64,000 nucleotides of DNA from Planctomycetota bacterium. Lineage in GTDB: Bacteria; Planctomycetota; Phycisphaerae; UBA1845. Location of the stretch: the NCBI GenBank assembly GCA_016200265.1, contig JACQFE010000060.1, positions 1-64,000 of the forward strand, given 5' to 3'. Below are positions 131 to 57,356 of this stretch, in pieces. Position numbers and translations under genes: made by a program. Below the pieces are notes generated by a model, which saw nothing but the letters and a program-made list of their open reading frames with translations, made no database searches and was not told the origin of the DNA. Every line of letters starts with the position of its first letter. Within the stretch, counting starts at the first letter, position 1.

Positions 131-224
131 GTGTTCTAAATGTAGTATCGCTGGGCATCGAAGCGCATGCCGCGCCGCTCGATGGGATCAAGTGAATTTG
201 AGATCTCAAGGAGTTGTATTTCAA

Positions 225-3200
225 ATGATCAGCATCGCAAGTGCGCATCGGTCGATCACGGTTTTGATAGTTTTTACTTTCTTTGCTTCCAAGACTTGCA
301 TCGGGGCGACGAATTACCATGTCCCAGCCGACTACCCCACCATCCAAGCTTGCATTATTGCAGCGCAAACGGGTGACGAGTGTGTGGTCGCGCCGGGCAG
401 GTATAGCGAGCGAATCAACTTTCGAGGCAGGGCAATCATATTGCATAGTCTCGGTGGTGCGGCGGTGACCACCATCGATGGCACTGGACTTGGCGGCAGT
501 GTTGTCACTTTCGATCACGGTGAGACCTCCTCCACAATCCTCGACGGCTTCACAATCACCGGAGGAACGGGACCAAATGGCGGAGGCATGTACATTTACA
601 ATGGCAGCCCAATGGTGACAAATTGTGCGTTCATCAGGAACTCGGTGGCGGGGAGCGGCGGAGGCATTTTCAACTACAACAGCAATCCGACGCTAATCAA
701 CTGTACATTTTACGGAAATTCGTCCCTCCAGAATGGCGGAGGAATCTACAACTCCAGCAGCAATCCGCAAATCGCAAATTGTACGTTTAGCGCCAACGTA
801 GCTCAGTACCTTGGTGGGGCAATTTACGGTTCCAGCAGCAACAGCAGTCCGAAAGCGAACAATTGTATCCTTTGGGGCAACCACCCTGACCAGGTCAATG
901 GCAGCGCTACGATTAGTAACAGTGACATCGAGGGCGGCTGGACGGGTTTGGGCAACATCAACGTCGACCCCGTTTTTCTTAATGCGTACGGAGGCGACTT
1001 GCGTTTGCGGTCCGGATCGCCTTGCATCGACGCCGGTGACAACGCGGCCATACCGGTTGGGATCACAACGGACATGGATAGAAACGTTCGGCGCGTTGAC
1101 GATCTTTGTGCGAGCGACACGGGTCATGGCCCTGCCCCGATCGTGGACATGGGGGCCTTCGAGTTGCCCGCGCCTCCACGATGCGGAGATGGCGTCTGCG
1201 ATCCCGGTGACTCGTGCGAGCTTTGTGCCTGCGACTGTGGCGCCTGTTGCGGCGATGGCGTATGCAGCGTCCATGAAAATTGCATTTCATGTCCTGTCGA
1301 CTGTACTTGTCCGACCTTACATGTTCCGGGTGATTACGGCCTGATTCAGGAGGCGATCGCCGCTGCCCATGGCGGAGACGAGATAATCGTTGGACCAGGC
1401 ATGTACAACGAGGCCATCGATTTTCTCGGAAAGGCGATTACGGTCCGGAGTTCCAACGGCCCTTCGACCACAAAGATCGATGCAACTGGGCTTAACAGAA
1501 GCGTGGTCACGTGTCGCCTTGGCGAGGGACCGGCAACTCTTCTTGATGGATTTACAATTAAGGGGGGGAAGGCCAACTCCGGCGGCGGGATGTACAACGA
1601 CATAAGCAGCCCAACCATCAGGAACTGCACGTTCAGCCAAAACGTGGCCACCAATGAAGGTGGCGGAATTTACAACAATCGTGGCAAACCAGTGATTACG
1701 AATTGTAGGTTTATCCACAATTCCAGTTGGATAGGCGGTGCTCTAGAAAATTGGTATAGCAATTCGACAATCGTGAATTGTATTTTTGTGCGCAATGATG
1801 CGAGTTCTGATGGCGGTGGAATTGATAACTACAACAGCAATCCCACGGTCACCAACTGCACCTTCTTTGGAAATACCACTACTGGATTTGGTGGTGGAAT
1901 GTCGAATGCAGGCGGAAACAGCGTCCCAACGGTCACCAATTGTATCCTTTGGGACAATTTTCCAGACCAAATCACCAACCGTCCCATCGTGAGTTCCTGT
2001 GATGTAAAAGGAGGGTGGAGCGGCGTCGGAAACATCAACGCCGACCCCCTCTTTGCAAATGCAAATAAAGGAGACGTGCGCCTCCGATCGGGGTCGCCTT
2101 GCATCGACGCAGGAAACAATGGAGGAGTGCCAGTCGGGCTTACGATGGATCTGGATGGCAGCCCTCGTTTCACGGATGATCGGTGCGCCATCAACGCCGG
2201 TTATGGGGTTGGGCCGTTGGTTGATATGGGAGCCTTCGAGGCAGTGACTGCACCGGAATGTGGTAATGGCATTTGTGAACAAGGTGAGTCATGTGAATCC
2301 TGCGTTTGCGATTGTGGCGAATGTTGCGGCGATGGGATTTGCGCACCATTTGAGGACTGCCTAACGTGTGCCGTCGATTGTTTATGTAAAACGATACATG
2401 TTCCGGACGAGTATGAACTGATCCAAGACGCAATCCAGGACGCAAAAGATGGTGACGAGATATCGGTCGCGCCTGGTCGATACTCCGAGGTGATTGATTT
2501 TCTGGGTAAAACGATTGTTGTACGAAGCTCCGCCGGACCGGACGTAACGACGATTGACGCCACGGGACTGAATTCGAGCGTTGTGACTTGCTGGAATGAA
2601 GAAGGCCCGAATACCGTGCTTGATGGATTTACGATCACAGGAGGGCGAGTCGGAATGACCAGCAATGCCAGCAACCCGACTGTCGCTAACTGCGTGTTCA
2701 CTGGAAATCAGGGCGCAGGGATGACCAATAGCTTAAGCAGTCCCATAGTGAGAAATTGCTCGTTTATCGGAAACTCATCGGCGGGCGATGGCGGCGGAAT
2801 GTCCAATGACTTTTATAGCAGTCCAACAGTGACACGATGCACATTTCGAGATAATACAGTGCAGTATCGTGGGGGCGGCATGGCCAACAACTTTTTTAGC
2901 AGTCCCCAGATGACGAATTGTTCCTTCATCGGAAATAAGGCTCAATGGGGCGGAGGAGCGATTCATAATACATACAACAGCAACCCAACGATTACGAATT
3001 CCACGTTCGATAAGAATTTGAGTGGTCCTTACAAAGACGGGGGCGCTCTATTCAATGATCAAAGCAACCCAACGCTTGCCAATTGCATTTTGTGGAACAA
3101 CTATCCCAACCAGATTACGCAAATTAATGGAGGCGCTACGGCGATAAGCTTCAGTAACATCAAAGGTGGCTGGATCGGCGACGGGAACATCGATGCGGAA

Positions 3201-4727
3201 CCCATGTTCCTCGATGAATTTCGTGATGATCTGCACCTTATGTCCGGGTCCCCGTGTGTCGATGCGGGAAGCAATGCGGCTCTGCCGCTTGGGGCGACGA
3301 ATGACTTAGGCGGCAGTGCCCGACGAGTTGATGATCCGTGCACACTTGATACGGGGCTTGGTACTGCTCCCGTGGTGGACATGGGAGGGTTCGAGCTCGC
3401 GTCGCCGTCTGAGTGTGGAAACGGCGTTTGCGATGGGGGAGAAACGTGCGAATTGTGCGCATGTGATTGTGGCAACTGCTGCGGGGATGGCATATGCAGC
3501 GTCCATGAAGACTGCTTATCATGCGTTGCCGATTGCTCTTGCTTGATTCTGAATGTTCCGGCTGACTACGACGGCATCCAAAACGCCATTGAGGCCGCAA
3601 GAAATGGTGACGAAGTTATCATCAACCAAGGCACGTATTTCGAAGCAATCGATCTTCTCGGCAAGGCGATTACGGTCCGGAGTTCATACGGTCCACGTGT
3701 GACGACAATTGATGCGACGGGCCTGGATACAAGTGTCGTTACGTGTCAGTCTGGTGAGGGGCCCGCAACTCGGATTGATGGTCTTACAATTACGGGCGGA
3801 AAAGCCCATTACGGAGGTGGAATGCACACTGAGTATCACAGCGGTCCTACGGTGTCCAACTGCAAGTTCACCAAGAACGCGGCTAGTGAAGGCGGCGGAA
3901 TGTACAATTCTGGAAGCACGCCGACGGTCATCAATTGCGAGTTTAATGGAAACACAGCCAGTTCGATCGGCGGGGGGATGCTTAACGACAGCTATAGCAG
4001 TGCGACGGTCGTCAATTGCGCATTTTTTGAAAATACCGCTGGCGGCGGAGGCGGAATATACAACTATGACAGCAATCTGGCTCTGACAAGCTGTACCTTT
4101 AGCGGAAATGTTGCGACTGGGGGCGCCATGTTTAACTTCCGTAGCACCGCAAACGTGACTGGTAGCATTCTCTGGGATAATTATCCCAATCAAATCACCA
4201 ATAACACCAGCAACAACGTCACGGTGCGTTTCAGCAATGTCGAAGGCAACTGGCCGGGCACGGGCAACTTAGCGGGTGATCCGCTCTTTGTGCCGGGGCC
4301 GATTGGGTGCTTCTATTTGAGCCAGAAAGCTGCTGGGCAAGCTGTTGACAGCCCATGCCTCAATTCGGGCAGTGATACGGCCGCTATCTTGGGATTGAAC
4401 GCGATGACGACACGCAGCGATGAGGGAACCGACTCAGGCCGCGTTGACTTAGGATACCATTATCCGGTGACTAGGCTCCCGCTCGTCATGGGCGACTTCG
4501 ACAGGAACGAGCGTGCTGAACTCAGTGACTTTTTGGAGTGGAGATCCTGTATGCATGGACCAGCCTACGCGACTGTTTCGCCGTGCTGCCGTATTTTCGA
4601 TATGGAGCTTGATGGCCACGTCGACCTGGCCGATTTTGCCAAATTCCAATCCGCGCTCAGGGACTTCCCGCACCACATTCCACCCAGCTGCGATCCCAAG
4701 GACCCCCGGTGTGAGAGCACAAAATGA
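225..4727 (+). CDS. Secreted four-module right-handed beta-helix protein with C-terminal dockerin
   Basis: The predicted protein has 1500 residues. I place the start at ATG 225, not the upstream GTG at 192, because AAGGAG lies 11 bases before it and a signal peptide follows directly (hydrophobic LIVFTFFASKTCIGA). Four homologous modules begin near residues 31, 365, 724 and 1109. Each opens with (L/H)VPxDYxxIQxAI..GDE, then GLNxSVVTC and LDGFTITGG, then runs of GGGxYN...NPxxxNCTFxxN rungs. These are typical parallel beta-helix (pectate-lyase-like) coils with Asn and Cys stacks. Modules are separated by three Cys-rich linkers of the CGNGxCExGExCxxCxxDCG type. Residues about 1422-1500 form two EF-hand loops (DFDRNERAELSDF and DMELDGHVDLADF), a dockerin-like end. 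The role is probably extracellular or cell-surface; I see no catalytic signature that would name a substrate. Confidence 0.88.
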   Translation: MISIASAHRSITVLIVFTFFASKTCIGATNYHVPADYPTIQACIIAAQTGDECVVAPGRYSERINFRGRAIILHSLGGAAVTTIDGTGLGGSVVTFDHGETSSTILDGFTITGGTGPNGGGMYIYNGSPMVTNCAFIRNSVAGSGGGIFNYNSNPTLINCTFYGNSSLQNGGGIYNSSSNPQIANCTFSANVAQYLGGAIYGSSSNSSPKANNCILWGNHPDQVNGSATISNSDIEGGWTGLGNINVDPVFLNAYGGDLRLRSGSPCIDAGDNAAIPVGITTDMDRNVRRVDDLCASDTGHGPAPIVDMGAFELPAPPRCGDGVCDPGDSCELCACDCGACCGDGVCSVHENCISCPVDCTCPTLHVPGDYGLIQEAIAAAHGGDEIIVGPGMYNEAIDFLGKAITVRSSNGPSTTKIDATGLNRSVVTCRLGEGPATLLDGFTIKGGKANSGGGMYNDISSPTIRNCTFSQNVATNEGGGIYNNRGKPVITNCRFIHNSSWIGGALENWYSNSTIVNCIFVRNDASSDGGGIDNYNSNPTVTNCTFFGNTTTGFGGGMSNAGGNSVPTVTNCILWDNFPDQITNRPIVSSCDVKGGWSGVGNINADPLFANANKGDVRLRSGSPCIDAGNNGGVPVGLTMDLDGSPRFTDDRCAINAGYGVGPLVDMGAFEAVTAPECGNGICEQGESCESCVCDCGECCGDGICAPFEDCLTCAVDCLCKTIHVPDEYELIQDAIQDAKDGDEISVAPGRYSEVIDFLGKTIVVRSSAGPDVTTIDATGLNSSVVTCWNEEGPNTVLDGFTITGGRVGMTSNASNPTVANCVFTGNQGAGMTNSLSSPIVRNCSFIGNSSAGDGGGMSNDFYSSPTVTRCTFRDNTVQYRGGGMANNFFSSPQMTNCSFIGNKAQWGGGAIHNTYNSNPTITNSTFDKNLSGPYKDGGALFNDQSNPTLANCILWNNYPNQITQINGGATAISFSNIKGGWIGDGNIDAEPMFLDEFRDDLHLMSGSPCVDAGSNAALPLGATNDLGGSARRVDDPCTLDTGLGTAPVVDMGGFELASPSECGNGVCDGGETCELCACDCGNCCGDGICSVHEDCLSCVADCSCLILNVPADYDGIQNAIEAARNGDEVIINQGTYFEAIDLLGKAITVRSSYGPRVTTIDATGLDTSVVTCQSGEGPATRIDGLTITGGKAHYGGGMHTEYHSGPTVSNCKFTKNAASEGGGMYNSGSTPTVINCEFNGNTASSIGGGMLNDSYSSATVVNCAFFENTAGGGGGIYNYDSNLALTSCTFSGNVATGGAMFNFRSTANVTGSILWDNYPNQITNNTSNNVTVRFSNVEGNWPGTGNLAGDPLFVPGPIGCFYLSQKAAGQAVDSPCLNSGSDTAAILGLNAMTTRSDEGTDSGRVDLGYHYPVTRLPLVMGDFDRNERAELSDFLEWRSCMHGPAYATVSPCCRIFDMELDGHVDLADFAKFQSALRDFPHHIPPSCDPKDPRCESTK
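1180..3545 (+). repeat. Three Cys-rich linker repeats between beta-helix modules
   Basis: Within the large beta-helix gene, three linkers at roughly 1180-1312, 2260-2388 and 3412-3545 encode near-identical double Cys motifs of the form CG(D/N)GxCxxGxxCExCxCDCGxCCGDG(V/I)CxxxExC. Together with the flanking beta-helix modules they give a repeat period of about 1.1 kb. This suggests that the gene grew by duplication of a module-plus-linker unit. The copies have diverged clearly, so the duplication is not recent. Confidence 0.8.
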
Positions 4728-20209: not shown

Positions 20210-20777
20210 GGAAGAAATTACAGGGTTCCGTCCGGCGGCGAAACCGATCGCCTAAGGGGGAGCCGCCGCGGAACCCGAATCGTAAAGTCGGCGGCTCAGG
20301 GCGCAAAGTGCGCGCAAGGAATTCGGAGACGCACCACATGGGCGGTCTTCCGCCGCCGACGTGGATTCGCGACATGGCACTATTGACGTGGATCTTGCGA
20401 GCCGACTTGGTTGCTTAAATGGAGTCTCGCAATTGAGAAACTGCCGGTCGTCATGCTGAGAGAAGCGAAGCATCTCACGCTCCGAGATTCTTCGGTCGCC
20501 TGCGGCGACCTCAGAATGACGCGGGTCGTAGGTCTAGGCTGTTTTCAATGTGGTTGAAGGGCAGAGTGGGCGTAATCGGTTGAGTCATTCCGTGCGTGGA
20601 GAAGGAACCGCGCGGCACCAGGCGTGCCGCTCAATTTGCGAGGTCGCATGGGAGATGTGATCTCGCGCTAAAGTTCACTGAATTTACACAAGATTGCAGA
20701 GGTCGACAAAGGCCGGTGTTCCCGGTGTAGGGGATGATGTGCGCCTGCGTCACGACGAATCTGATGGAGGGATGACT
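20210..20777. other. Intergenic region carrying a REP-like repeat
   Basis: There is no supported coding sequence here. The region contains an imperfect inverted repeat described separately (20450-20520) and, at 20766-20770, the GGAGG ribosome binding site of the following gene. Confidence 0.5.
20450..20520. repeat. REP/MITE-like imperfect palindrome (GTCATGCTGAG...CTCAGAATGAC)
   Basis: The outer arms GTCATGCTGAG and CTCAGAATGAC are imperfect inverted repeats. Inside are GAAGCGAAGCATCTC and GAGATTCTTCGGTCGCC, again roughly complementary. This resembles the widespread interspersed repeat whose consensus I remember as GTCATTCTGAGCGAAGCGAAGAATCTC, found between genes in many bacterial phyla. It probably folds into a long hairpin and is non-coding. 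Confidence 0.65.
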
Positions 20778-23700
20778 ATGAATCGGCGATTGGTTTCCGG
20801 AGTCCTTCTCGGCGTCGCGGGCGTATGCCTTTCGGCAACGTCTTCGGTGCGAGCACAGAGTTGCCCCAACGATGGGGCAGGCACAGTTTTCAATCACGAT
20901 CACACGCTTCAATTCAATGTCGATCTTGGGCAGATCACAGGGGCCGGGGCCACGTTGTTTCTCAATTTCTTCTCGGCTCCGGCGTCGACTAATGACTGGA
21001 TTGACGTGGACAACGATGGGCAGGCGGGGTTCTTCAACACCTTCCCGTTCGTGGACCAGCTTGCGGCGCAATTTACGCCGACGCAGCCTCCCGCCCTCAA
21101 TACCGAGTGGATTTTCCAATACCGCCCAGTGGGCTCGGTGAACGGATTTAACGAATTTGTCGAGAACCAGACCTGCGGCGCACTGCGAACCAACATTCCC
21201 GCGGATATCAGCGCCTTTAATGGGTTCACGTACGCATCCGCGGGAGCGCGCGCGTGGGCCGGCCCGTTTGACATCCCCAGTGGCACGCCGCTGGCCCCGT
21301 GTTCAATTGATTTCGCCGCTCTTGACGTACCTGGAGCTTGGGCAGTGCAGGTGCCGGGCACGCCGGAATGGGATCGAAAACCAACGACGGCTGGCTATGG
21401 CCTGAATCCCATCGTGTCGTCGACGGGCTATGTAAGCAATCTTCAAACAGCTAGCCGGCAATGCGGGATTTGCAGCGTTGGCGGTCGCCCATGCACGTCG
21501 GACGTAAACTGCAACGGAACCTGCAATGGCGATGGTCTGACCTGGTGCGTGACCAATGCCGATTGCGCCAATGCCAGCCCCCCCAATAATTGCGTGGGAG
21601 CGTCGACTTGCACTCTCAGCGGTCCCGTGGTTTCACTGAATCAGAATGCATCCGGAAGCCAAAACGCGAACACGATCAACGACAACCCCATGGTTTTCGT
21701 ACCCATTGTTCCGATCGCCAATCGCGGAAGCGGTGTGCAAAACGTTAGCTACACGGACCTCCGATACGTGTTCGTTACCGGGCGAATGCCGAACGGCGAA
21801 AACCTGGTTGCGGCCACACGCTCCGTCGGATCCGGCACGCGCAACGGCGAGATGAACTCACTGGGCATCGACACGAGCTGGGGGCGCGGCGACAACGTGG
21901 GCAACGAAGTAACCGTGACGGGTCGTTTCGACCTCGGTCCGGGCACTCAGCAATCAAACGGCGAAGGCTCGGGACAAACGGAAGAGTCTGTGCGCCAACA
22001 CCGTCTCGCAATTGGCTATACAGGCCTGGGCGGCTCCAGCCGCGCCATTGGAGACACCATTGCGGGGCAATATGAGATCCTCAATGTCTGCAAGGACGTC
22101 GCCGGGTGTGATTGTACGAATCTTGCAAACTTTGTTCGCCCGAGCATTAACACCGTGTTGGACAATTGCAACGCTTGCACGGGATTTACTCTCGGGGGTC
22201 CGGAGACGTTCATTACCCGCGGCGACCCGGATGCGAACCGCGATCCGATGGACCAGCATTACAACGCCGTCGATCCGCCGACAGCCAACCAGCAGGTAGC
22301 CAACTATATCAACAACATCATCGACAGTCTGGCGTCGTTCGACGGCAGCACGCAGCCGGCCCAGTGCTTCGCCGCAGAAGTTTGCCATTCCAAGAAGTGC
22401 AGCAATTCCGCGACGCTCTGCTCAGTCAACGCGGATTGTCCGGGCGGCACGTGTGGGTTTGTGAATTGCGTGGCCGATGGTGATTGCACCCTGCCGACGC
22501 AACCGATTGATCTCGGTGCATGTGACGTGCCGCGTAACTGCACCAGCGACGCCACCTGTACCACGAGGACGTGCAGTGTCGACGGCATGGTTTGCACCGG
22601 CACAGGAAACGGTACTTGTTCGCAGGTTCCCGATCCGCAAACGTGTCGCGCGGACTTCTGCAAATCAAGCGCCAATATGCCGGGGCAATTCATGGCCACG
22701 GCGTTTTTCCTCATCCCATCGCTCGATTGTGCGCAAAGCGTAACCGACCCGGCGGCGTTCAATCCCAATCTGTTGTTCGTTCAGAGCATCCAGGATTATG
22801 TTCGTGCGCACAACGGTCTTGGGGTCAGCTCGGACACACCGGCGTTTGGCTCGGTGAACACGGCCGGACAGGTTCCCGTTCGTATCGCCTTGTCTGGGGG
22901 GAACTTCTATTCTGATGGTTCGACGACAGGGAGCTATGAATACTGGAACGGCGCGAGCTACGTCACGATCAGCAGCGGGCAAAAGCTTTCGAAGCGAAAT
23001 CGCCTGGCAGGTGACTTTAACAATAACGGCGTGCGTGATGTCAGTGATATTTCCGAAATGGTAAAGGCTGTCTACGGACCGCGCGCATGGCAGCAGACGG
23101 CCGCAGCGTCCGGTACCGGGACGGGATTTGATCTCGGCAACATGACGACGGATAACGCCATCCCCGAAGTCATCGGCGACTTCAACGGTGACGGAAGTTT
23201 GGACAAAGAAGACCTTCGCTACATGATGGACGGTCTTTCGATTTCCGGCGGCAGCCTGAATCGTAAGCAGGGTGCGATCGCCGTCGATAATGCTCTCCAG
23301 GCAGGCACCCATGCATTCCCCTGGGCTGAGCCCGCACAATCGACCACGATTTCCGCAGGAGCCTTCCCTGACGCAACGGAACCGACGTTCTCAACTCCTC
23401 ATGACGTCAATGGCGTTCCGAAGTTCCTGAAGACCGGAAAGGTCTATGCAAACGGAGACTTCCGCGGCGATGTGGCCGGCAACGGCTATCAGGCCTGCGT
23501 GAACGGTCACTGCAACTACACGAACGAGACTTGCGTGACTGCGGCCACTTGTCCGCGAACGCCACCCACTCCGGGCGCTCAGCCGATGGGCTGGGACGGC
23601 GTCGTGGATGATAAGGACATCTCGTACTGTTGCAAGATGGTTCGTGCCGGTACGTGGCACAACTTGAGCAACGCCGTTTTGAGCGATCTTAGCTGCGATA

Positions 23701-24656
23701 TGAACGGCGATGCAGATGTCACATTTGCGGACGTTCAGGAACTCGTTCAAGGAATTCTTGGCACCCAGTTCGGCGACGTGAATCTCGATGGTGTCGCCGA
23801 CGCCGCCGATCGCGCCATCATTCAAGCGTCAATCGACGGCCCGAATCCGTGCATCGCCGCTCATGCCTGTGGATGGGCGGACGGTGACATGAATTGCGAT
23901 GGCGTCGTGGATGCGAGCGATTTGGCGAACGTGACGCCGGCTCCGGAGAACGTCGCGAATCCTGTTGACAAGCCAAGATACTTGTCATTCCGCGAGTCAT
24001 CCGCTGTAGCCGCACCGGTGCCGAAGGCAATTCAGGTTACACTGGTCTTGCTCATGCATCCGAGTCCGGGAAACTTGCCTGGGCACCCGGCGCCGGACTT
24101 CACCGGGTTTGAAGGTCAGGTTCGTTACGCGAATAACCCGCACCTTTGCCAGGAATCGGAGACGCCGTTCACTCCCTTCTCCTGCTCTGAGCTGAAATGC
24201 ACGCCCGAGTATCGGGATGACTGGGCGTCATGGGGAGATATCCATCTATATGGGTCGGCAATCGTCCCAAGCTCGAAGTACGACATCCAGGCAATCTATT
24301 TGGATGCGACCGAGCCGTCTGCGGCGTTGACAATTACGACAGGTCGTTGGGGTGATGTTGTGACTCCGTTCCAAGGTGTGTGTACGTGCAATGTGGGTGG
24401 CGCGGAATGCGTCGTCAATTCCGATTGCGGGGCAAATGGTCCGTGCAATTGTCCGGCTTTGACACAGCCGAACATTCAGGACATTTCCGCGATTGTTGAC
24501 AAGTTCAAGAGCGTTCCCAATGCACCCATTATTGCTCGGGCGGACTTGGTGCCGAACATTCCAGATAACGTGGTCAATATCTCAGACGTGGCGGCGTGCG
24601 TGGACTCGTTCAAGAACATCCAATACGTTCAACCCGGCCCATCGGCATGCCCGTAA
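20778..24656 (+). CDS. Very large secreted protein with EF-hand/dockerin repeats and shared C-terminal cassette
   Basis: The protein has 1292 residues. I take ATG 20778 (MNRRLVSGVLLGVAGVCLSATSSVRAQ signal peptide) because GGAGG lies seven bases upstream; ATG 20772 is too close and the track start too early. The N-terminal part is a beta-rich unknown region. Two Cys-rich patches follow (CGICSVGGRPCTSDVNCNG..., about 225-280; CTSDATCTTRTCSVDG, about 575-620). EF-hand loops appear in pairs: DFNNNGVRDVSD (about 746) with DFNGDGSLDKED (about 798), and DVNLDGVADAAD (about 1000) with DMNCDGVVDASD (about 1037), as in dockerins. The last 200 residues (LMHPSPGNLPGHPAPDF to GPSACP) are nearly identical to the end of the propeller protein two genes downstream. 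Function unknown; extracellular calcium-binding scaffold is an inference. Confidence 0.82.
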   Translation: MNRRLVSGVLLGVAGVCLSATSSVRAQSCPNDGAGTVFNHDHTLQFNVDLGQITGAGATLFLNFFSAPASTNDWIDVDNDGQAGFFNTFPFVDQLAAQFTPTQPPALNTEWIFQYRPVGSVNGFNEFVENQTCGALRTNIPADISAFNGFTYASAGARAWAGPFDIPSGTPLAPCSIDFAALDVPGAWAVQVPGTPEWDRKPTTAGYGLNPIVSSTGYVSNLQTASRQCGICSVGGRPCTSDVNCNGTCNGDGLTWCVTNADCANASPPNNCVGASTCTLSGPVVSLNQNASGSQNANTINDNPMVFVPIVPIANRGSGVQNVSYTDLRYVFVTGRMPNGENLVAATRSVGSGTRNGEMNSLGIDTSWGRGDNVGNEVTVTGRFDLGPGTQQSNGEGSGQTEESVRQHRLAIGYTGLGGSSRAIGDTIAGQYEILNVCKDVAGCDCTNLANFVRPSINTVLDNCNACTGFTLGGPETFITRGDPDANRDPMDQHYNAVDPPTANQQVANYINNIIDSLASFDGSTQPAQCFAAEVCHSKKCSNSATLCSVNADCPGGTCGFVNCVADGDCTLPTQPIDLGACDVPRNCTSDATCTTRTCSVDGMVCTGTGNGTCSQVPDPQTCRADFCKSSANMPGQFMATAFFLIPSLDCAQSVTDPAAFNPNLLFVQSIQDYVRAHNGLGVSSDTPAFGSVNTAGQVPVRIALSGGNFYSDGSTTGSYEYWNGASYVTISSGQKLSKRNRLAGDFNNNGVRDVSDISEMVKAVYGPRAWQQTAAASGTGTGFDLGNMTTDNAIPEVIGDFNGDGSLDKEDLRYMMDGLSISGGSLNRKQGAIAVDNALQAGTHAFPWAEPAQSTTISAGAFPDATEPTFSTPHDVNGVPKFLKTGKVYANGDFRGDVAGNGYQACVNGHCNYTNETCVTAATCPRTPPTPGAQPMGWDGVVDDKDISYCCKMVRAGTWHNLSNAVLSDLSCDMNGDADVTFADVQELVQGILGTQFGDVNLDGVADAADRAIIQASIDGPNPCIAAHACGWADGDMNCDGVVDASDLANVTPAPENVANPVDKPRYLSFRESSAVAAPVPKAIQVTLVLLMHPSPGNLPGHPAPDFTGFEGQVRYANNPHLCQESETPFTPFSCSELKCTPEYRDDWASWGDIHLYGSAIVPSSKYDIQAIYLDATEPSAALTITTGRWGDVVTPFQGVCTCNVGGAECVVNSDCGANGPCNCPALTQPNIQDISAIVDKFKSVPNAPIIARADLVPNIPDNVVNISDVAACVDSFKNIQYVQPGPSACP

Positions 24657-24699
24657 GCGGAAATAAGCCCAAAGATAGAAGTAGGAGTTTATTTTCAAG

Positions 24700-24738
24700 C
24701 CGGTTTGGGCTGCACGACAGCCCAAACCGGTTCATTTT
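24700..24738 (+). terminator. Rho-independent terminator after the large EF-hand gene
   Basis: CCGGTTTGGGCTG (24700-24712), loop CACGA, and CAGCCCAAACCGG (24718-24730) form a perfect 13-bp stem, followed by TTCATTTT. It ends the transcript 44 bases after the stop codon at 24656 and separates it from the Cys-repeat gene, which therefore needs its own promoter. Confidence 0.88.
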
Positions 24739-25003
24739 CCGACTTTCCGTTGCGCGGAGGAACCCAGTGACCATTCCATTCCAAAGGGAATTCGACTGAG
24801 CGCATCATCTCGATTGCTATTGACATTGGTACCCCTGCTGGGTAACCTATCGGCCGCTGCGCTCGGAATAGTGGTAGTCTGGGCGTTTTGACGGCGAAAA
24901 TCTCCCCGTTCGCAGGCGAGAACGGTATGGTTGTCCACAAATTGAATCCAAGGCACAAATCGTGCTGGGAGCGTCGAAGCTTTTCATCTAAGGAGGAACA
25001 TCC

Positions 25004-26467
25004 ATGAAATCCGCCCTGGTCTTATTATTCGCTTCGTGTTTGGCATTCGTCTCATCGGTAAATGCGCGCGACGTTCGGTCACCGAAGAGAAACTCGCAAC
25101 GGGAAACGCGTGTGCAAGCTGCGGCGAACGTTGTTTCTCCGGCGTGCATCCAGGCATGCGAACAGCAGGCCGAGGATGTATTCCATTCCTGCATCGAGAA
25201 CGGGGGGACCGAGGAGAATTGTCGACATACGGCCAATGAATTCATGGCGTCGTGTGTCGCGCAGAATTGCGGGCAGCCACCGGATTGCGCCTCACAGTGC
25301 CACATGGCGGCCGAACAACTATTCCAATCGTGCATAGACGGCGGAGGTAGTGAGGACGACTGCCGCGCACAAGCGCATGCGGCGCTGGACACGTGCCTTC
25401 AGGATCAATGCGGACAGCCGCCGAGCTGCCAGGATCAATGCCAGGCTGGCGCCGAGCAGGCGTTTCATGCTTGCATCGGAGCGGGTGGAACGCAGGATGC
25501 GTGCCACACCGCAGCCCAGAATTTCCTGCACAACTGTCTGCAAACGAATTGCGGTCAGCCGCCGAGCTGCGAGGCGCAGTGCCACCAACACGCTGAGGAT
25601 GTGTATCAACAGTGCATTAGCGGCGGAGGTAGTCAGGATGCTTGCTCCGCGCAGGCCCACGATGCGTTCAACGTTTGCCTACAGAATCATTGCAACCTTC
25701 CGCCGCCCCCGACAGATTGCGAGCAACAGTGCCAGCAGCAGGCGGGAGAAGCGTACCATCATTGCATTGATCAAGGCGGCACTCAGGACGAATGTGCTGC
25801 CGCAGCCCACACCGTACTGACGAACTGCATCACGCAAAATTGTCACCAGCCGCCGCCTCCAGATTGCGAGACCCAGTGCGAGGAACACGCCCAACAGTTG
25901 TTCCATGATTGTACGGCCGCAGGCGGATCGCAGGACGATTGCCAGGCTGCGGCGCAGGAATTCTTGGCGCATTGCATCTACGAATTGTGCGGAGGTCCCC
26001 CGCCTCCCCCGCCTCCTCCGGACTGCGAAACTCAGTGCCACAATGCCGCGACGCAGCTTTACAATACTTGCATCAGCAACGGCGGTACGGCTGAACAATG
26101 CGGGCACGTTCGCGACGAATTCCTGCAGCATTGCTTAATCGAGGATTGCAATCTACCTCCTCCGCCTCCTCCGCCGGATTGCCAGGCCTCATGTCAGAAT
26201 GACGCGACTGAGGTTTATGACCACTGCGTGAGCAATGGCGGGACTGCGGAACAATGTGCCGCGGCACGCGATGAGTTCTACCAACATTGCCTTGTTGATC
26301 GCTGCAATGCTCAGCCGCCGCCCCCTCCGCCGAGCTGTGCAGACCAATGTGAGGCCGCCGCGAATGATGTGTACAACAATTGCATCCATCATGGCGGAAC
26401 CGCGGACCAATGTGGACATGCGCGACAGGAATTCCTAACCAACTGTCTTTCGCATTGCGGCCCGTGA
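25004..26467 (+). CDS. Secreted protein of nine tandem six-cysteine helical-hairpin-like repeats
   Basis: The protein has 487 residues; ATG 25004 follows AAGGAGG and begins a signal peptide (MKSALVLLFASCLAFVSSVNA). From residue 48 to the end it is nine repeats with the strict spacing C-x3-C-x10-C-x9-C-x10-C-x4-C, for example DCASQCHMAAEQLFQSC then GGGSEDDC. Each half (C-x3-C-x10-C and C-x10-C-x4-C) reads as an amphipathic helix rich in Ala, Gln and Glu, with a conserved GG(T/S)xxxC turn between. Linkers are GQPP in the first repeats and grow to polyproline (PPPPPPPP) in repeats 6-8. The last repeat has x3 before its final Cys. I do not recognise a named family; the layout recalls CHCH-type disulfide-stapled hairpins. 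It lies between two genes whose products share a C-terminal cassette. Confidence 0.9.
   Translation: MKSALVLLFASCLAFVSSVNARDVRSPKRNSQRETRVQAAANVVSPACIQACEQQAEDVFHSCIENGGTEENCRHTANEFMASCVAQNCGQPPDCASQCHMAAEQLFQSCIDGGGSEDDCRAQAHAALDTCLQDQCGQPPSCQDQCQAGAEQAFHACIGAGGTQDACHTAAQNFLHNCLQTNCGQPPSCEAQCHQHAEDVYQQCISGGGSQDACSAQAHDAFNVCLQNHCNLPPPPTDCEQQCQQQAGEAYHHCIDQGGTQDECAAAAHTVLTNCITQNCHQPPPPDCETQCEEHAQQLFHDCTAAGGSQDDCQAAAQEFLAHCIYELCGGPPPPPPPPDCETQCHNAATQLYNTCISNGGTAEQCGHVRDEFLQHCLIEDCNLPPPPPPPDCQASCQNDATEVYDHCVSNGGTAEQCAAARDEFYQHCLVDRCNAQPPPPPPSCADQCEAAANDVYNNCIHHGGTADQCGHARQEFLTNCLSHCGP
25145..26464 (+). repeat. Nine in-frame repeats of about 141-159 bp
   Basis: The coding DNA of the nine Cys repeats. 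Unit lengths differ mainly through the Pro-rich linker (CCGCCGCCC/CCTCCT tracts). The tracts near 26000, 26155 and 26317 are low-complexity C/T-rich runs, likely sites of slippage. Individual units differ widely in sequence apart from Cys, GG and Pro codons, so the expansion is old. Confidence 0.9.
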
Positions 26468-26487
26468 ATCGAGGGGATGGTGAAGGG

Positions 26488-28098
26488 GTGAAGCGCGGTA
26501 GTGAAAGGCGAAACCGCCGGGGCTTCCGGCGGATGGGAGCAGCCATCCCTTGCGCTGTAGTCTGCTTTTGCGTCTGCAACTTCGTCCGCGCCGGTGACAT
26601 CTATTGGGCTCAATCCTTCGATGACCGAATCCAGCACGCCGATAGCAGCGGCGCAAATGCCGTGACGCTCCTCTCCTGGCCGCAGGTGAATGGTGCCGTG
26701 GGAATTGCGGTGGACGCAATTCATGGAAAGGTGTATTGGGCTCAGACCTTCGGAAACCGCATCGCAACTGCAAGTCTCGATGGCAGCGGCCAACAGACCT
26801 TACTTGAGTGGCCCGAGCTCGACGGTCCAATCGCCATCGCACTGGATATCGCAGGTGGTAAAATCTATTGGGTTCAAAACACGGGCCCGCGAATCATGCG
26901 GGCAAACTTGGACGGCAGCAGCGCGGAGAATGTGGTCATTTGGCCCGATGTGAATGGCCCTGTCGGCATCGCCATTGATTCCGCCGCAGGAAAAATTTAT
27001 TGGGCGCAGACGTTTGGACCGCAGATCATGCGCGCCAATCTTAACGGTTCATCAATCGAAACCGTACTGGCATGGCCTAATCTGAATGGCCCCGTCGCAA
27101 TCGCCGTGGATCCCGCGGCACAGATGGTTTATTGGGCGCAATCTTCGGGCCCGAGCATCATGCGGACCCCTTATTCTGGAACCAATGTGCAGACGATCGT
27201 GCCGTGGCCTGATGTCGATGGGCCTACCGCTATTGCCCTCGACGCCGCAGGCGGAAAAGTCTATTGGGCGCAGAGCTACGATGACCGAATTCGCCGGGCT
27301 GACAAGAATGGTGGAAGCCTTGCTGAGACGCTCCTCTCCTGGCCTGTGGTCAGCGGGGCCACGTCCCTTGCATATGCAATTACGGCCGGAACTCCTGCAA
27401 ACTCGATGAGTCGTTATGTCACCATGGCGCCTGCGCCGGCCGCTCAGCCCGTCGCGTTTCGTGTGAAATTGGTTTCTTTGATGCACCCGAGCCCCTCGAA
27501 CATCCCGCAGAATCCGGCTCCGAATTTCTCTTCATTTGAAAGTCAGGTTCGTTGGGTAGGTCCGCCACACCTTTGCCAGGAGTCAGAGACGCCGTCTACG
27601 ATGTTTTCCTGTGCGGAGGTGCAATGTACACCCGAATATCAAAGCGATTGGGCATCCTGGGGCAATATTCAATTGTATGGAAACGCGATCGTGCCGAGTT
27701 CCAAGTACGCTTTGCAATCCATCTTCCAGGGATCAGATATCAATAACGAGGCCGCGTACTCGTCGGCCTTAACCCTTCAAACCGGTCGATGGGGCGATGT
27801 CGCTGCTCCGTTCCAGGGTCCTTGCACTTGTAACTCGGGCAGCGCGGAATGCGTCGTGAACGCCGATTGCGGCGCAAATGGTCCGTGCAACTGCCCGGCC
27901 TTGACTCAACCAAACATTCAGGACATTTCCGCGATCGTGGATAAGTTCAAGAGTGTTCCCAGTGCACCGTTCGTTGCTCGTGCGGACCTAGTGCCGAACA
28001 TCCCGGACAACGTCGTCAACATTTCGGACGTGGCGGCGTGCGTCGACGCTTTCAAGAATATTCAATATGTGCAACCGGGCCCCTCAACATGCCCGTAG
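26488..28098 (+). CDS. Secreted YWTD-like beta-propeller protein with shared C-terminal cassette
   Basis: The protein has 536 residues from GTG 26488, with GAGGGG ten bases upstream; ATG 26533 is an alternative. Either start gives a signal peptide (IPCAVVCFCVCNFVRA|GD). Residues about 35-300 are seven repeats of about 43 residues of the form GKIYWAQ-xGxxIMRANLDGSxxETVLxWPxxxGPxAIAxD. This is the LDL-receptor class B (YWTD) six-bladed propeller pattern with YWAQ in place of YWTD. The C-terminal 205 residues (LVSLMHPSPSNIPQNPAPNF to GPSTCP) nearly duplicate the end of the 1292-residue protein upstream, including NIQDISAIVDKFKSVP and NVVNISDVAACVD. Gene order and shared ends suggest a common location. 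No enzymatic motif is visible. Confidence 0.85.
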   Translation: MKRGSERRNRRGFRRMGAAIPCAVVCFCVCNFVRAGDIYWAQSFDDRIQHADSSGANAVTLLSWPQVNGAVGIAVDAIHGKVYWAQTFGNRIATASLDGSGQQTLLEWPELDGPIAIALDIAGGKIYWVQNTGPRIMRANLDGSSAENVVIWPDVNGPVGIAIDSAAGKIYWAQTFGPQIMRANLNGSSIETVLAWPNLNGPVAIAVDPAAQMVYWAQSSGPSIMRTPYSGTNVQTIVPWPDVDGPTAIALDAAGGKVYWAQSYDDRIRRADKNGGSLAETLLSWPVVSGATSLAYAITAGTPANSMSRYVTMAPAPAAQPVAFRVKLVSLMHPSPSNIPQNPAPNFSSFESQVRWVGPPHLCQESETPSTMFSCAEVQCTPEYQSDWASWGNIQLYGNAIVPSSKYALQSIFQGSDINNEAAYSSALTLQTGRWGDVAAPFQGPCTCNSGSAECVVNADCGANGPCNCPALTQPNIQDISAIVDKFKSVPSAPFVARADLVPNIPDNVVNISDVAACVDAFKNIQYVQPGPSTCP

Positions 28099-51825: not shown

Positions 51826-51925
51826 TCTCGATTGAGTCAACACGAATCTTCATCGAAATATTGACTTCCCGACCTAACGGGTGGAGAATCCAGACGCCCG
51901 CATACTTCTCAATTGGGGTTCTTTA

Positions 51926-54900
51926 ATGTCATTATGGAAATGGTCGCGACGGAATTCGTCGAAGGGGCCGGCCGCGCAATCTGCGCTGCAAGACGTCACC
52001 ACCGTCCATACAATTTCAGGCAATGTCATCCGAATCGGTTTCTCGAATGCCTGGATGTTGATGATCGCCGCGTTTACTCCAAGCGTCGCGTTTTCCGCGG
52101 AACCGGAGCCAATCTCGATCATCAATCGCACATCTCGAATAGATGGCCGGACAGTATTTCTATCCGGCGCAAGAGGATTGCCGATCCCCGCTTCTCCAGG
52201 CCAATCCGAAAAGCCTGCGATCACGAGACGTCAGTTCTTCAATTCGTACGGGCGCCTTTTTGGAGTCAAAGATGCGGGTAGCGAATTGGTTGCATCAGCG
52301 CCACAAGTCGACGACCTTGCCCAGATCCATGTCACATACAACCAGGTGTTCAACGGAATTCCGGTTTTCACAGGGATTTTGAAAGTCCACGAGAACGCAC
52401 AGGGCGAAGTCGTGGCGGCTAACGGCCACTTTCATTCCATCGATCCAAAATTTGATGTGACTCCATTGCTCACCAAGCAGGATGCAACGAAGGCCGTGAG
52501 CGCACAAACCGAGTCACCCGGCCCGACTGTCAACAAATGCGAATTGGTGATCGTTGATCCCGGTTGGTACGGCGATCCACCGATCGGCCCGCATCTCGCT
52601 TATTATGTGATTCTCAGTGACTCGAGCATCGGACTCGAAGATGCCTTCTTTATTGACGCGATGACCGGCAAGATTCTCGACCGCTGGACACTGATTGAGA
52701 ACATTCTTCAGCGAGTGATCTATGATGGAGTGGGAGCCCGCGACCTTCCCGGCGTTGTCGCGCGTATCGAAGGCGATCAGCCGGTGCTCTCGCCGGAGGA
52801 TGTAAACAGGGGCTATGACTTCATCGACGACACATATGGATACTATTTTCGCGCCTTCGGTCGTGATGGACTCGACGGTTTCGGATCGCGGATCCGAACC
52901 ACTGTGAATTCGACGGCCCCTGGCTGCCCGAATGCGTTCTGGTCCGATGTGCGGAAGCAGACCGTGTTTTGTGATGGCACTGTGTCCGACGACATCGTGG
53001 CACACGAATTCACACACGGCGTGACGCATTTCACGGCTCAATTGCTTTACCAGAACCAATCCGGCCAGCTCAACGAATCATTTTCCGATGTGTTTGGCGA
53101 ATTGATTGATTTGTTTAACGGCAACGCAGCCTTCCTTGCTGATACGACCCATTATCAATGGCCCCAGACTCTGTCCGGAACCGGGCACGATTTGCCAAAC
53201 TTGCGCCGTGGAGATTCGTGCTCGATTCCGCCTGATTATGCCGGGGGCGTACGCTGGCTCTTTGCGGAGGACGCTTCGGTTTTCGGAGGACTGCTGCGGG
53301 ACATGTGGAATCCGCCTTGTATGGGCCATCCGGATCGCGCGAATAGTCCCCTCGAAACATGCGATCCATTTGATAGCGGTGGTGTTCACAGCGGCAGCGG
53401 AATTCCGAATCACGCGTTTGCCATGCTTACAGATGGTAAGACCTTCAACGGCTTCACCGTCCGAGGAATCGGGCCGATCAAATCTGGCGCGGTTTGGTAT
53501 CGCGCGCTCACCATGTATATGCCGATCGCCCCTGATTTCCTGGATGCCTATTACGCATTCAATCAGGCCGCGTCCGACCTCATTGGAAAATTCCTCAAGG
53601 ATCCCCGAACGGGCTTTCCTTCCAACAGCATGTTTACAGCAGATGATGCGGCGCAGGTGGATCTTGCGCTCCGCGCCGTCGAAATGGACACGCCAGGGCG
53701 CTGCGGTCAGGCCGTGGCTCTCCTGCTGCCCAATCCGCCGCCATCGTGCGCTCAATCGCGAACCATCTATTTTGACGACTTCGAAAATGGTGCACCGGGA
53801 TGGACGGTTGAGAATTCCCAGCCGCCATCGCCGTATGACTGGGTGCTTTCGTCAGTACCATTGCCATTGCAGCGATCCGGGCACGTATGGTATTGCGACG
53901 ACCCTGATGTTGGTGACTGCCATGACAATGACGAATCAGGTTTGCACTCGCTCATCAGTCCGGAAATCAAATTGCAAGGCGATCTCCGATCGCCGCGTAT
54001 ACGGTTCACTCACCATTTTGCCACGGAAGGCGGCTTTGACGGCGGCCAGGTGAAAATTCGAGTCAATGGCAGTGCATGGTTTCTGATTCCGGGCAGCGCT
54101 TTCTTGTTCAATCCGTATACCGGGCCCCTCAATCGCGTGAATCAGGGTAGCACGAACCCTCTCGCGGGAACCGAAGGTTGGTCGGGCGTGAGTGGAAAAT
54201 TCGGCACATCAGTGGCCGCAATCGAACGCTTCGCACGACCAGGCGACACCGTACAATTGCGTTTCGATTTCGGAAAGAACGGCTGCACAGGAGTCCAAGG
54301 CTGGTATGTGGACGACTTCGAAGTGTACGATTGCACCGATTGCGATCGAAACGGACGTGGCGACGATAATGATCTTATCTTCTCACTTGTACTCGAACCG
54401 GCCGGACCGGTCGGCAAGGATACGCCAGTTTCCTTTGATCTTACCAAACTGCCCTTGGCAGGTGACGATGTTTCGATGCGCGTGTCAGCATCCGGCGACC
54501 TTTCCAAGGCGGCCATTGATGAATATCTCGAGGTGAGTCTCGACCATGTTTCCATCGGGCGAGTCTTCGACGGCTCGGGAAACGACTGCGCGGACGTTCC
54601 CGATATCGACGACTTGACGATCGATCGCGATGTGTTCAATGCGGCGATTCAAGATGGACACGCAAAGTTGACTTTCGTCGGCAATGATGAGGTGAATCCC
54701 ACGCTTTGCGATGGCACGTCGTATGTCAGGCCGGTGCTGACCTATCGAACTGCGGTTCCCGATGACAATCACAACAACATCTCGGACATGTGTGAAAACT
54801 GCGGCATTGCCCGATCACCGACTGCGGCAGCCGACGCCACGTCGGCAAATCGATACCTCGTCATAAACAGTACTAATCCCAATCGCATCACCGCCATCTT

Positions 54901-55486
54901 CGTGACACCGGTGGGCGCGGCAAGTGAGGAAAAATCAGTGTGGCAAGGCGAATGGGTCGATCAGCCCGTATTCCAACCTGAACCGCGCGACATCGAAGGA
55001 CCTCTTCTGACTTACGCTTCGTTGACGTGTGAACCGGCCTTCGTGAATTGGAGCTTGCTTGGCGAAATCCGCATTTCCGGCGAAATGCTTGTGCCTGGGA
55101 AACTGTACTCGGTGCGTGAGTTGGATGTCGCCTGCCTGCCGCCGGATGGCGTCATTGATTTCAGCCGGCTTGAACCTAATCTCTCACTGCCGAATGAATT
55201 GCCCACCACGGCGATTTGGGGTGACATCAGCAGCGCAAGCAAGGCAGGCGTCGCCGATGGCAAGGTCGACATGATTGACCTGACGGCCATTCTCGATTGC
55301 TTCGGCCTCTTGTCCCGCGCCGTGCAAACGTATCAAGCGGATCTCGCGCCGGCGAAGCCGGATCACATCGTCGATATCCGCGACATTGCAGCGGAGCTCG
55401 ATGCATTGCACGGAGTTCCGTTGTCCGGTTCGAACGGACCATTATGTCCAATCCCATCGCCTAGGGTTCGCCGGAACCGTCATTAA
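51926..55486 (+). CDS. Secreted thermolysin-like metallopeptidase (family M4) with C-terminal jelly-roll-like and cassette domains
   Basis: The protein has 1186 residues from ATG 51926; the start is uncertain since the hydrophobic export segment (WMLMIAAFTPSVAFSA) lies about 45 residues in, and ATG 52054 near it is an alternative. Residues about 90-200 are an FTP-like propeptide (YNQVFNGIPVFTGILKVHENAQGEVVAANG). The peptidase has DDIVAHEFTHGVTHFTAQL (zinc site HEFTH near residue 358), NESFSDVFGE (third ligand) and GGVHSGSGIPNHAFAM (active-site His near residue 486). Residues about 610-800 look like a MAM/jelly-roll domain (FDDFENGAPGWTVEN...GVQGWYVDDFEVYDC). The last 200 residues are related to the cassette of the two proteins at 20-28 kb and end with dockerin-like DGKVDMIDLTAILDC. 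It degrades proteins outside the cell. Confidence 0.9.
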   Translation: MSLWKWSRRNSSKGPAAQSALQDVTTVHTISGNVIRIGFSNAWMLMIAAFTPSVAFSAEPEPISIINRTSRIDGRTVFLSGARGLPIPASPGQSEKPAITRRQFFNSYGRLFGVKDAGSELVASAPQVDDLAQIHVTYNQVFNGIPVFTGILKVHENAQGEVVAANGHFHSIDPKFDVTPLLTKQDATKAVSAQTESPGPTVNKCELVIVDPGWYGDPPIGPHLAYYVILSDSSIGLEDAFFIDAMTGKILDRWTLIENILQRVIYDGVGARDLPGVVARIEGDQPVLSPEDVNRGYDFIDDTYGYYFRAFGRDGLDGFGSRIRTTVNSTAPGCPNAFWSDVRKQTVFCDGTVSDDIVAHEFTHGVTHFTAQLLYQNQSGQLNESFSDVFGELIDLFNGNAAFLADTTHYQWPQTLSGTGHDLPNLRRGDSCSIPPDYAGGVRWLFAEDASVFGGLLRDMWNPPCMGHPDRANSPLETCDPFDSGGVHSGSGIPNHAFAMLTDGKTFNGFTVRGIGPIKSGAVWYRALTMYMPIAPDFLDAYYAFNQAASDLIGKFLKDPRTGFPSNSMFTADDAAQVDLALRAVEMDTPGRCGQAVALLLPNPPPSCAQSRTIYFDDFENGAPGWTVENSQPPSPYDWVLSSVPLPLQRSGHVWYCDDPDVGDCHDNDESGLHSLISPEIKLQGDLRSPRIRFTHHFATEGGFDGGQVKIRVNGSAWFLIPGSAFLFNPYTGPLNRVNQGSTNPLAGTEGWSGVSGKFGTSVAAIERFARPGDTVQLRFDFGKNGCTGVQGWYVDDFEVYDCTDCDRNGRGDDNDLIFSLVLEPAGPVGKDTPVSFDLTKLPLAGDDVSMRVSASGDLSKAAIDEYLEVSLDHVSIGRVFDGSGNDCADVPDIDDLTIDRDVFNAAIQDGHAKLTFVGNDEVNPTLCDGTSYVRPVLTYRTAVPDDNHNNISDMCENCGIARSPTAAADATSANRYLVINSTNPNRITAIFVTPVGAASEEKSVWQGEWVDQPVFQPEPRDIEGPLLTYASLTCEPAFVNWSLLGEIRISGEMLVPGKLYSVRELDVACLPPDGVIDFSRLEPNLSLPNELPTTAIWGDISSASKAGVADGKVDMIDLTAILDCFGLLSRAVQTYQADLAPAKPDHIVDIRDIAAELDALHGVPLSGSNGPLCPIPSPRVRRNRH

Positions 55487-57036: not shown

Positions 57037-57356
57037 TACGCATTCCGTTTTGTACCACACGGGTGTATGGGAGGGCGAGCTCCCGGCGAGCCGCGACTCA
57101 GCAGGAGTTTCACCCTCTCAATACGCCACATACAAACTGATTTCCACTTCAAAAGTTGTCTTGCTTCCCAAAGCGACATTTATGCTCAATGATGGATTCT
57201 CCCACGAACTCGGCTATCATAGGTAGGTAACAGCCCGTCGGGTTATCGGCCAAATCCGTCAACCCGCATCGGGAAGGGGACCAAGGGGAAAGGAATCGGG
57301 CAATCCACGCAATTCAGATCGTGGGCACTCGGCAGTGATTGAAAAAGGGGATTCCA
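57037..57356. other. Intergenic region carrying a palindromic repeat
   Basis: There is no coding sequence I can support. It contains the inverted repeat listed at 57069-57119, and an AAGGGG before ATG 57357 that serves as the next ribosome binding site. Confidence 0.5.
57069..57119. repeat. Palindromic REP-like unit (GGGAGGGCGAGCTCC...)
   Basis: The outer arms GGGAGGGCGAGCTCC and GGAGTTTCACCCTC can pair with few mismatches around the core CGGCGAGCCGCGACTCAGCA. I recall very similar units (GGAGGGCGAG-CTCC-...-GAGCCGCGACTCAGCAGGAG-...-CCCTCC) between genes in planctomycete genomes, in many copies. It is a different class from the repeat at 20450. Confidence 0.65.

Follow-up and report, generated by a model that had tools for sequence, protein, structure and literature searches.

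A C-terminal cassette of a beta-sandwich and a remodelled dockerin on unrelated exported proteins of a planctomycete: a candidate tag for docking to cohesins

In the 64,000-nucleotide stretch of planctomycete DNA analysed here (the window), two genes for different exported proteins end in the same tail, and a peptidase gene ends in a divergent version of it, which raises the question of what this tail is and what it does for its carriers. The sequence motifs reported for it in an initial annotation were recovered in the reading frame where ORFs 20694-24656 and 26380-28098 close, and the divergent version assigned to the M4 peptidase ORF 51881-55486 was recovered as a match to the full profile at 54848-55450 (E=1.1e-39). 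As shown in Table 1, a single module accounts for the divergent tail and for those at 23970-24653 and 27409-28095. Copies 1 and 2 are 76% identical across 211 residues (E=2.9e-109), which is far above chance. The copies delimited previously are real, but the module starts about 20 residues before the limits given then, at 23970 and 27409, where a conserved (K)NRYISF motif marks its beginning; for domain A of copy 1, the domain A HMM gave 24027-24374 and the module start was taken from the full profile. The cassette comprises about 210 residues, with a beta-sandwich (domain A) followed by a dockerin pair (domain B), and is closed by a near-invariant GPxxCP-COOH, CP being the final residues in 51 of 62 ORFs. 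The peptidase ORF was assigned by its Pfam matches to Peptidase_M4 (6e-12), Peptidase_M4_C (2.3e-24) and FTP (4.3e-10).

Table 1. Cassette copies in the window and the genes that carry them
Position	Strand	Feature	Evidence
20694..24656	+	1320-aa exported protein, function unknown; internal dockerin-like stretches; cassette at end	
23970..24374	+	Copy 1, domain A (beta-sandwich), KPRYLSF to first Asp of dockerin loop 1 (GRWGDV)	
24375..24458	+	Copy 1, Cys-rich insertion within dockerin loop 1, GVCTCNVGGAECVVNSDCGANGPCNC, also in copy 2	
24459..24653	+	Copy 1, domain B, dockerin-derived, end GPSACP	B HMM E=1.9e-29
26380..28098	+	572-aa exported protein: LDL-receptor-class-B-type beta-propeller, then cassette	Ldl_recept_b E=2.8e-13
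27409..27816	+	Copy 2, domain A (beta-sandwich)	A HMM, full profile; AF2
27817..27900	+	Copy 2, Cys-rich insertion, dockerin loop 1	
27901..28095	+	Copy 2, domain B, dockerin-derived, end GPSTCP	B HMM E=9.9e-31
51881..55486	+	1201-aa M4 (thermolysin-type) metallopeptidase, divergent cassette	
54848..55234	+	Divergent copy 3, domain A	A HMM, full profile
55265..55450	+	Divergent copy 3, domain B; 11 residues, then stop	B HMM E=6.4e-16

A profile search of the 4.56-Mb genome gave 77 matches, so the cassette is not limited to the genes of the window, and about 65 cassette genes were counted. In nearly all copies domain B ends 0 to 6 residues before the stop codon, at the extreme C-terminus. The 62 N-terminal regions, in which 54 Pfam families were recognised, are unrelated, which bears out the view of a tail common to unrelated secreted proteins. 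By a simple rule, a signal-like N-terminus was present in 52 of 63 cassette proteins, and several of the other 11 are cut by contig ends. Peptidases of the M4, M12B-reprolysin, M14, S8 and trypsin types are among the carriers; among the carriers whose domains can be recognised, non-peptidases predominate, namely propellers, beta-helices, MauG, GSDH and RCC1 proteins. Within the searches made, the cassette is almost wholly restricted to one planctomycete family.

Domain A was modelled by AF2 as a confident beta-sandwich in two cassettes, with pLDDT values of 77-94 in most core blocks of copy 2. It has no match in Pfam or NCBIfam and is new to both databases. The cassette as a whole obtained only chance matches there (Dumpy_DPY and others), in keeping with its earlier description as undescribed. 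Its profile found no match among PDB sequences, X-modules included, and Foldseek searches with both AF2 models returned nothing confident, with weak FnIII-like matches.

Domain B is homologous to dockerins, as judged by profile comparison. When aligned by hhalign with 27 canonical dockerins of the same bacterial family, it reached a probability of 77-91% (P 2e-5 to 1.3e-6) over 50 columns, with both repeats in register, whereas the controls (reversed domain B; domain A) reached 0.1-0.2%; this set replaced an earlier, pattern-found one of 6 sequences that had given a weak score. Together with the AF2 sandwich in domain A, this result agrees with the proposed architecture of a beta-sandwich plus a dockerin-like pair. 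The pair had also been described as lacking normal Asp loops, which is correct with regard to insertions in the loops but not with regard to D1, N/D9 and D12, which are retained in most copies. Loop 1 is usually enlarged, often by about 8-10 and by up to about 30 residues, while loop 2 gains about 3. With insertions in both loops, the cassette usually does not show the canonical form of the calcium loop, 12 residues of the pattern D-x-[ND]-x-[DN]-G-x-[VI]-[DN]-x-x-D; a canonical loop 1 occurs only in a few divergent copies, such as WGDVNQDGVVDIRD (L074:5078-5548) and another at L095:4955-5578. Because the calcium loops are abnormal, calcium binding is uncertain. The insertions also explain why Pfam misses domain B: the abundant cassette type had no match to PF00404 (cut-off 22.9 bits), and the best divergent copy scored 22.2 bits. 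The cut-off of 29 bits for NF041540 (dockerin_GC) was reached by no cassette copy tested, the best in this genome being copy 3 (24.3 bits), whose domain B has the loop-1 motif WGDIS...DGKVDMIDL. AF2 placed two helices in domain B at the expected positions with low confidence (pLDDT 31-48 across most of the domain).

Since the cassette is undescribed, combines a beta-sandwich with a dockerin-like pair, and closes about 65 exported proteins that have nothing else in common, it is best read as a shared attachment tail. Dockerins work by docking to cohesins, and cohesin-dockerin parts are known chiefly from cellulose-degrading machines. On balance we favour the view that the cassette is a general C-terminal docking tag, similar to the XDoc dyad of cellulosomes, that binds cohesins and thereby brings about surface display. 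Cassette proteins would leave the cytoplasm via their N-terminal signal peptide, and the remodelled dockerin would then insert into cohesin modules, possibly with a need for calcium. A candidate receptor is a two-cohesin protein (C15) that an IPTL-CTERM-like anchor at its C-terminus would fix to the cell surface, possibly after processing of the anchor, and a protein with HYR, cohesin and dockerin domains (C59) might act as an adaptor. The outcome would be a cell surface on which enzymes, propellers and beta-helix proteins, about 65 in all and unrelated to one another, are displayed. Cohesins are the most likely partners of the cassette, judging from co-occurrence and gene clustering.

Among 51 genomes of the family, cohesins were present in 24 of 25 cassette-rich but only 9 of 26 cassette-poor genomes (Fisher P=3.9e-6), and at the genus level in 17 of 18 versus 7 of 14 (P=0.01), P values that overstate independence because the genomes are kin. 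The Spearman correlation of cohesins across the family genomes was 0.73 with the cassette, slightly inflated by a few cohesin matches within cassette proteins (C67 of this genome; G002, G018), and 0.06 with canonical dockerins, which were rejected on this basis as the sole cause of cohesin presence. A large and uniform class of dockerin-derived tails tracks cohesins over the 51 genomes and canonical dockerins do not. The family has very many dockerin-bearing proteins and few cohesins, and some relatives show as many as 100 canonical dockerin matches although no cohesin could be detected in them. The latter suggests that dockerins in this family may manage without cohesins and is consistent with a different function, in which the cassette is a former dockerin that has lost cohesin binding, as marked by its inserted, non-canonical calcium loops, and now binds a ligand or matrix such as a polysaccharide, the cell wall or another protein; the FnIII-like sandwich before domain B would also fit. 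We consider this unlikely, as the cohesins follow the cassette rather than the canonical dockerins, the three loop positions are still kept in most copies, and domain A matches no known binding domain.

The candidate receptor of the docking tag, C15, has 472 residues and two cohesins (C15:33658-34911) above the Pfam cut-off (PF00963, 46.5 bits). Its C-terminus, IPASGSWGLVVMALVLLIAAKV...R, is an IPTL-CTERM-like predicted membrane anchor, although the IPTL-CTERM models PF18203 and TIGR04174 gave no match in this protein. Orthologues in G015, G012, G048, G018 and G067 have ends of the VPALSAWGLLVLALALLTA type, and in four of seven tested proteins of the C15 family IPTL-CTERM was found below threshold, with up to 19.0 bits versus a cut-off of 20.5. 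A predicted C-terminal anchor resembling a sorting signal is located on the candidate partner and not on the cassette. The best match of the C15 family profile among solved cohesins was to those of ScaB (E=7.6e-7), which are of type II. C59 (960 aa) contains the HYR, cohesin and dockerin domains named above, and C20 of this genome has a cohesin as well. Altogether, the genome encodes five cohesin domains for about 65 cassette tails, and therefore the stoichiometry would be loose or further receptors would exist. No cassette gene lies in the surrounding 4.5-kb stretch that was inspected for the C15 gene; in G018, a cluster (L148) combines a cohesin-plus-cassette gene, an Ig-plus-cassette gene and a three-cohesin scaffold with a predicted anchor. 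Two-cohesin proteins with a predicted anchor are also present in the cassette-poor genomes G003 and G049, and one anchored cohesin in G045, so the scaffold is not cassette-specific. Instead of the cassette, C15 could accommodate canonical dockerins, for which its own genome has 28 matches.

Less likely again is that a dedicated export or sorting machine, as for the C-terminal domains of T9SS substrates, reads RYLSF...GPxxCP and moves or attaches the protein. The extreme C-terminal position, the many copies per genome, the unrelated partners and the near-invariant CP end are in agreement with such a signal, and near-confinement to one bacterial family is expected for a tail with its own machine. 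The tail is, however, neither hydrophobic nor basic, domain B is homologous to dockerins, and no cassette matched the T9SS (including its CTD), PEP-CTERM, IPTL-CTERM, rhombosortase or myxosortase models of Pfam and NCBIfam. The maximum 19-residue hydropathy over all copies was 1.66; lacking a hydrophobic anchor and ending in GPxxCP, the cassette is not of the PEP-CTERM type, and a mechanistic likeness to the PEP-CTERM and T9SS tails, with which the initial annotation compared it in role, finds no support. Exosortase, encoded in 51 of 51 family genomes with or without the cassette, was for this reason rejected as a discriminating partner. That the cassette and a cohesin adaptor serve solely a peptidase complex of the planctosome kind proposed for Nemodlikiaceae, rather than general display, is very improbable: the peptidase carriers fit, as does C59 with the cohesin, HYR and dockerin architecture of the adaptor described for it (PMC6461901), but the carriers with a recognisable domain are mostly non-peptidases.

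If cassette-cohesin binding is true, cohesin-dockerin docking would be a general route of surface display outside cellulosomes, and protein engineering would gain a new class of specificity in the remodelled loops; the small multi-cohesin protein with its predicted anchor is a concrete, testable candidate receptor. It is possible, and proposed here with reserve, that in this one family a single X-dockerin tail with enlarged loops and small IPTL-CTERM-anchored multi-cohesin receptors form a general non-cellulosomal display system, in which cohesin-dockerin pairs replace PEP-CTERM and T9SS tails as the main surface sorting code.

Among known systems, PEP-CTERM, IPTL-CTERM and T9SS tails likewise occur as a single C-terminal tail on many unrelated exported proteins per genome, but the cassette is about 210 residues long, dockerin-derived and free of a membrane segment or basic end. 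With the dockerins of PF00404 and NF041540 it shares two loop-plus-helix repeats and largely the D1, N/D9 and D12 positions, and differs in scoring below the cut-offs, in its expanded loops, in always following domain A and in its GPxxCP end. The planctosome, proposed for Nemodlikiaceae as a peptidase complex built from cohesins and dockerins with a lamin-tail protein as anchor, is likewise a use of these modules in Planctomycetota outside cellulosomes, with a C59-like adaptor and with reprolysin and M14 clients; here, by contrast, the candidate counterpart of the lamin-tail anchor is a small protein that has two cohesins and ends in an IPTL-CTERM-like stretch, the clients are far more diverse, and the consulted passages of the planctosome account (PMC6461901) make no mention of the cassette. 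Close to the cassette, too, is the XDoc dyad of the cellulosomal scaffoldins CipA/ScaA and CipB (PDB 2b59, 5k39), which joins complexes to surface-anchored type II cohesins (PMC5141474). In both, a beta-sandwich directly precedes a C-terminal dockerin (for the cassette, by position and by AF2 models of two copies), and the candidate scaffold matches ScaB cohesins best; yet neither by sequence nor, with confidence, by fold does domain A match the X-module, the dockerin loops carry insertions, and the cassette is found on about 65 unrelated exported proteins, with no cellulosome, instead of on one scaffoldin.

Two ORFs of the window carry the main copies of the cassette, and their C-termini are the strings quoted in the initial annotation; the divergent version that it claimed for a peptidase was found at the end of the M4 peptidase ORF (Table). 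Sequence identity between the main copies is 76% across 211 residues. The module is longer than originally delimited: its first residues are the conserved motif (K)NRYISF (positions 23970 and 27409 in these copies), and its last ones are GPxxCP, directly at the stop codon. Between the two genes, at 25004-26467 (+), lies the gene of a 487-aa exported cysteine-rich protein with ~9 repeats of ~45 residues (CxxQCxxxAxxxFxxCIxxGGTxxxCxxxAxxFxxxCLxxxCxxPP), for which Pfam gave only implausible matches. The window also encodes two other exported proteins whose C-termini are dockerin-like pairs different from the cassette, so the organism seems to possess several C-terminal dockerin classes.

Table. 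Cassette proteins, other dockerin-like ends, and cohesins
Feature	Location	Strand	Remark
ORF with main cassette copy	20694-24656		quoted string at C-terminus
ORF with main cassette copy	26380-28098		quoted string at C-terminus
M4 peptidase ORF	51881-55486		divergent cassette at C-terminus
Exported beta-helix protein	192-4727	+	other terminal dockerin-like pair
Exported GBD_T9SS_assoc protein	57339-59756	+	ends ...LSDTCP; other terminal dockerin-like pair
Cohesin, own genome	contig C15		two in 472-aa protein
Cohesin, own genome	contig C59		one in 960-aa cohesin + HYR + dockerin protein
Cohesin, own genome	contig C67		one, inside cassette protein
Cohesin, own genome	contig C20		one

The genome (4.56 Mb, 80 contigs; the window lies on C76) gave 110 matching pieces in a single-sequence search with the cassette. 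The genome-wide profile count proposed in the initial annotation, performed with the 213-position profile A2 built from 44 copies, yielded 77 matches, which correspond to about 65 cassette genes, allowing for a few cut by contig ends. With iterated profiles, domain A was found in 64 open frames and domain B in 63 (stretches fetched from the genome). Domain B reached the very last residue in 51 of the latter; 51 cassette proteins end in CP, and the penultimate cysteine is near-invariant. By a simple rule, 52 of 63 proteins had a signal-peptide-like start, and several of those lacking it are genes cut by contig ends. Two proteins (L034 on C41, L045 on C75) have a second cassette directly behind the signal peptide in addition to the C-terminal one. 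At C69:8500-20400 (L036), five tandem genes each have a terminal cassette. The assembly itself seems to be broken by the cassette: the starts of C41 and C64 hold overlapping pieces, apparently of one gene, and the end of C69 and the start of C56 hold truncated related genes.

Among 62 N-terminal regions, 54 Pfam families were matched, each in at most five proteins. They include right-handed beta-helices, FG-GAP, Kelch, RCC1 and BNR propellers, MauG peroxidase, glucose/sorbosone dehydrogenase and others, as well as reprolysin, trypsin, subtilase, M14 and M4 peptidases. This diversity shows that the cassette is common to unrelated exported proteins, the central claim of the first reading.

AF2 models predict domain A to be a beta-sandwich with good core confidence; among solved structures it had no confident match, the weak ones being FnIII-, C2- and Ig-like. 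For domain B the AF2 confidence was low. Judged by profile comparison, domain B is dockerin-derived: its profile aligned with 27 canonical dockerins of the same bacterial family with both repeats in register (P = 2e-5 to 1.3e-6), whereas reversed B and domain A, used as controls, gave nothing. Dockerin loop 1 begins with the conserved WGDV that closes domain A. This loop is canonical in one divergent copy of the genome (L074, WGDVNQDGVVDIRDVAAVVDMF), the corresponding reading in a relative's copy (L095) being HGDVDGSGQVDVSDLVHTID; in the common form it is enlarged (GDVVAPFQ...PLTQPNISD), and both main window copies additionally contain a Cys-rich insert within it. Loop 2 is longer by ~3 residues (DLNPAIPDGRVNISD). 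D1, N/D9 and D12 are retained in most copies. The extra residues in loops 1 and 2 account for the absence of any Pfam score and for the closest NCBIfam model, NF041540, remaining below its cut-off.

Named relatives with the cassette are the Planctomycetota/Phycisphaerae MAGs OFTM286, B87T1L10 and Dive96_bin10.178. Of 51 genomes of the family, 25 contain 5-78 copies and 26 none or one; for the order's other families there is one match at most, and a sample of 391 other planctomycete genomes, with seven candidates scored per genome, yielded no match. In a tree, the nine copies of relatives formed one group apart from all 44 own-genome copies (98% of bootstrap trees); the cassette has therefore been multiplied and shuffled onto new proteins within lineages.

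Of the 25 cassette-rich genomes, 24 contain cohesin (PF00963); of the 26 cassette-poor ones, 9 do (Fisher P=3.9e-6). At genus level the figures are 17 of 18 versus 7 of 14 (P=0.01). These P values are guides only, because the genomes are related. The sole cassette-rich exception, G042, has a cohesin detectable with a local profile (L205). Cohesin counts correlated with cassette counts (Spearman 0.73; genus means 0.75) but not with counts of canonical dockerins (0.06; genus means -0.05), which occur in 51/51 family genomes. Five family genomes (G005, G020, G051, G041, G072) have 40-100 canonical dockerin matches (PF00404) each and no cohesin match, hence dockerins without a known receptor. Several large cohesin-bearing genes are clustered side by side in G011, G047, G046 and G022 (L138, L139, L140, L141, L147), many ending in ADLNxDGxxDxxDI single-loop tails.

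With five matches, cohesins are few relative to cassette tails in the window's own genome. The C15 protein ends in IPASGSWGLVVMALVLLIAAKVGFSVLRPPAARKS; its orthologues in G015, G012 (two), G048, G018 (three cohesins) and G067 have similar ends, e.g., CIPVPALSAWGLLVLALALLTA and CELIPTVSGWGLIILALLLLTA. Four of seven tested score just below the cut-offs of IPTL-CTERM models. A profile of these proteins matches the ScaB cohesins of Acetivibrio (E=7.6e-7). All 51 family genomes encode exosortase, the class of enzyme that is expected to process IPTL-CTERM-like anchors. In G018, a cohesin+cassette gene, an Ig+cassette gene and the three-cohesin anchored scaffold form a cluster (L148). Three genomes with 0-1 cassette also have such proteins: G003 and G049 encode anchored two-cohesin proteins, and G045 an anchored cohesin. 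This candidate receptor is therefore not exclusive to the cassette.

The proposed role as a putative attachment tail stands, but not the comparison with PEP-CTERM or T9SS tails: the cassette is a variant of the dockerin/XDoc kind. No description of it was found in the literature searched. The known architecture most like it is the X-module-dockerin dyad, whose receptors in the cellulosome are type II cohesins (PMC5141474). The closest described system is the planctosome of freshwater Nemodlikiaceae, a hypothetical cohesin-dockerin peptidase complex (PMC6461901), with which the genome shares the adaptor architecture, in its C59 protein, and peptidase families among some cassette clients. New are the cassette itself, in which domain A precedes a dockerin with enlarged loops, as well as the scale of its use, the diversity of its clients and the small anchored multi-cohesin protein.
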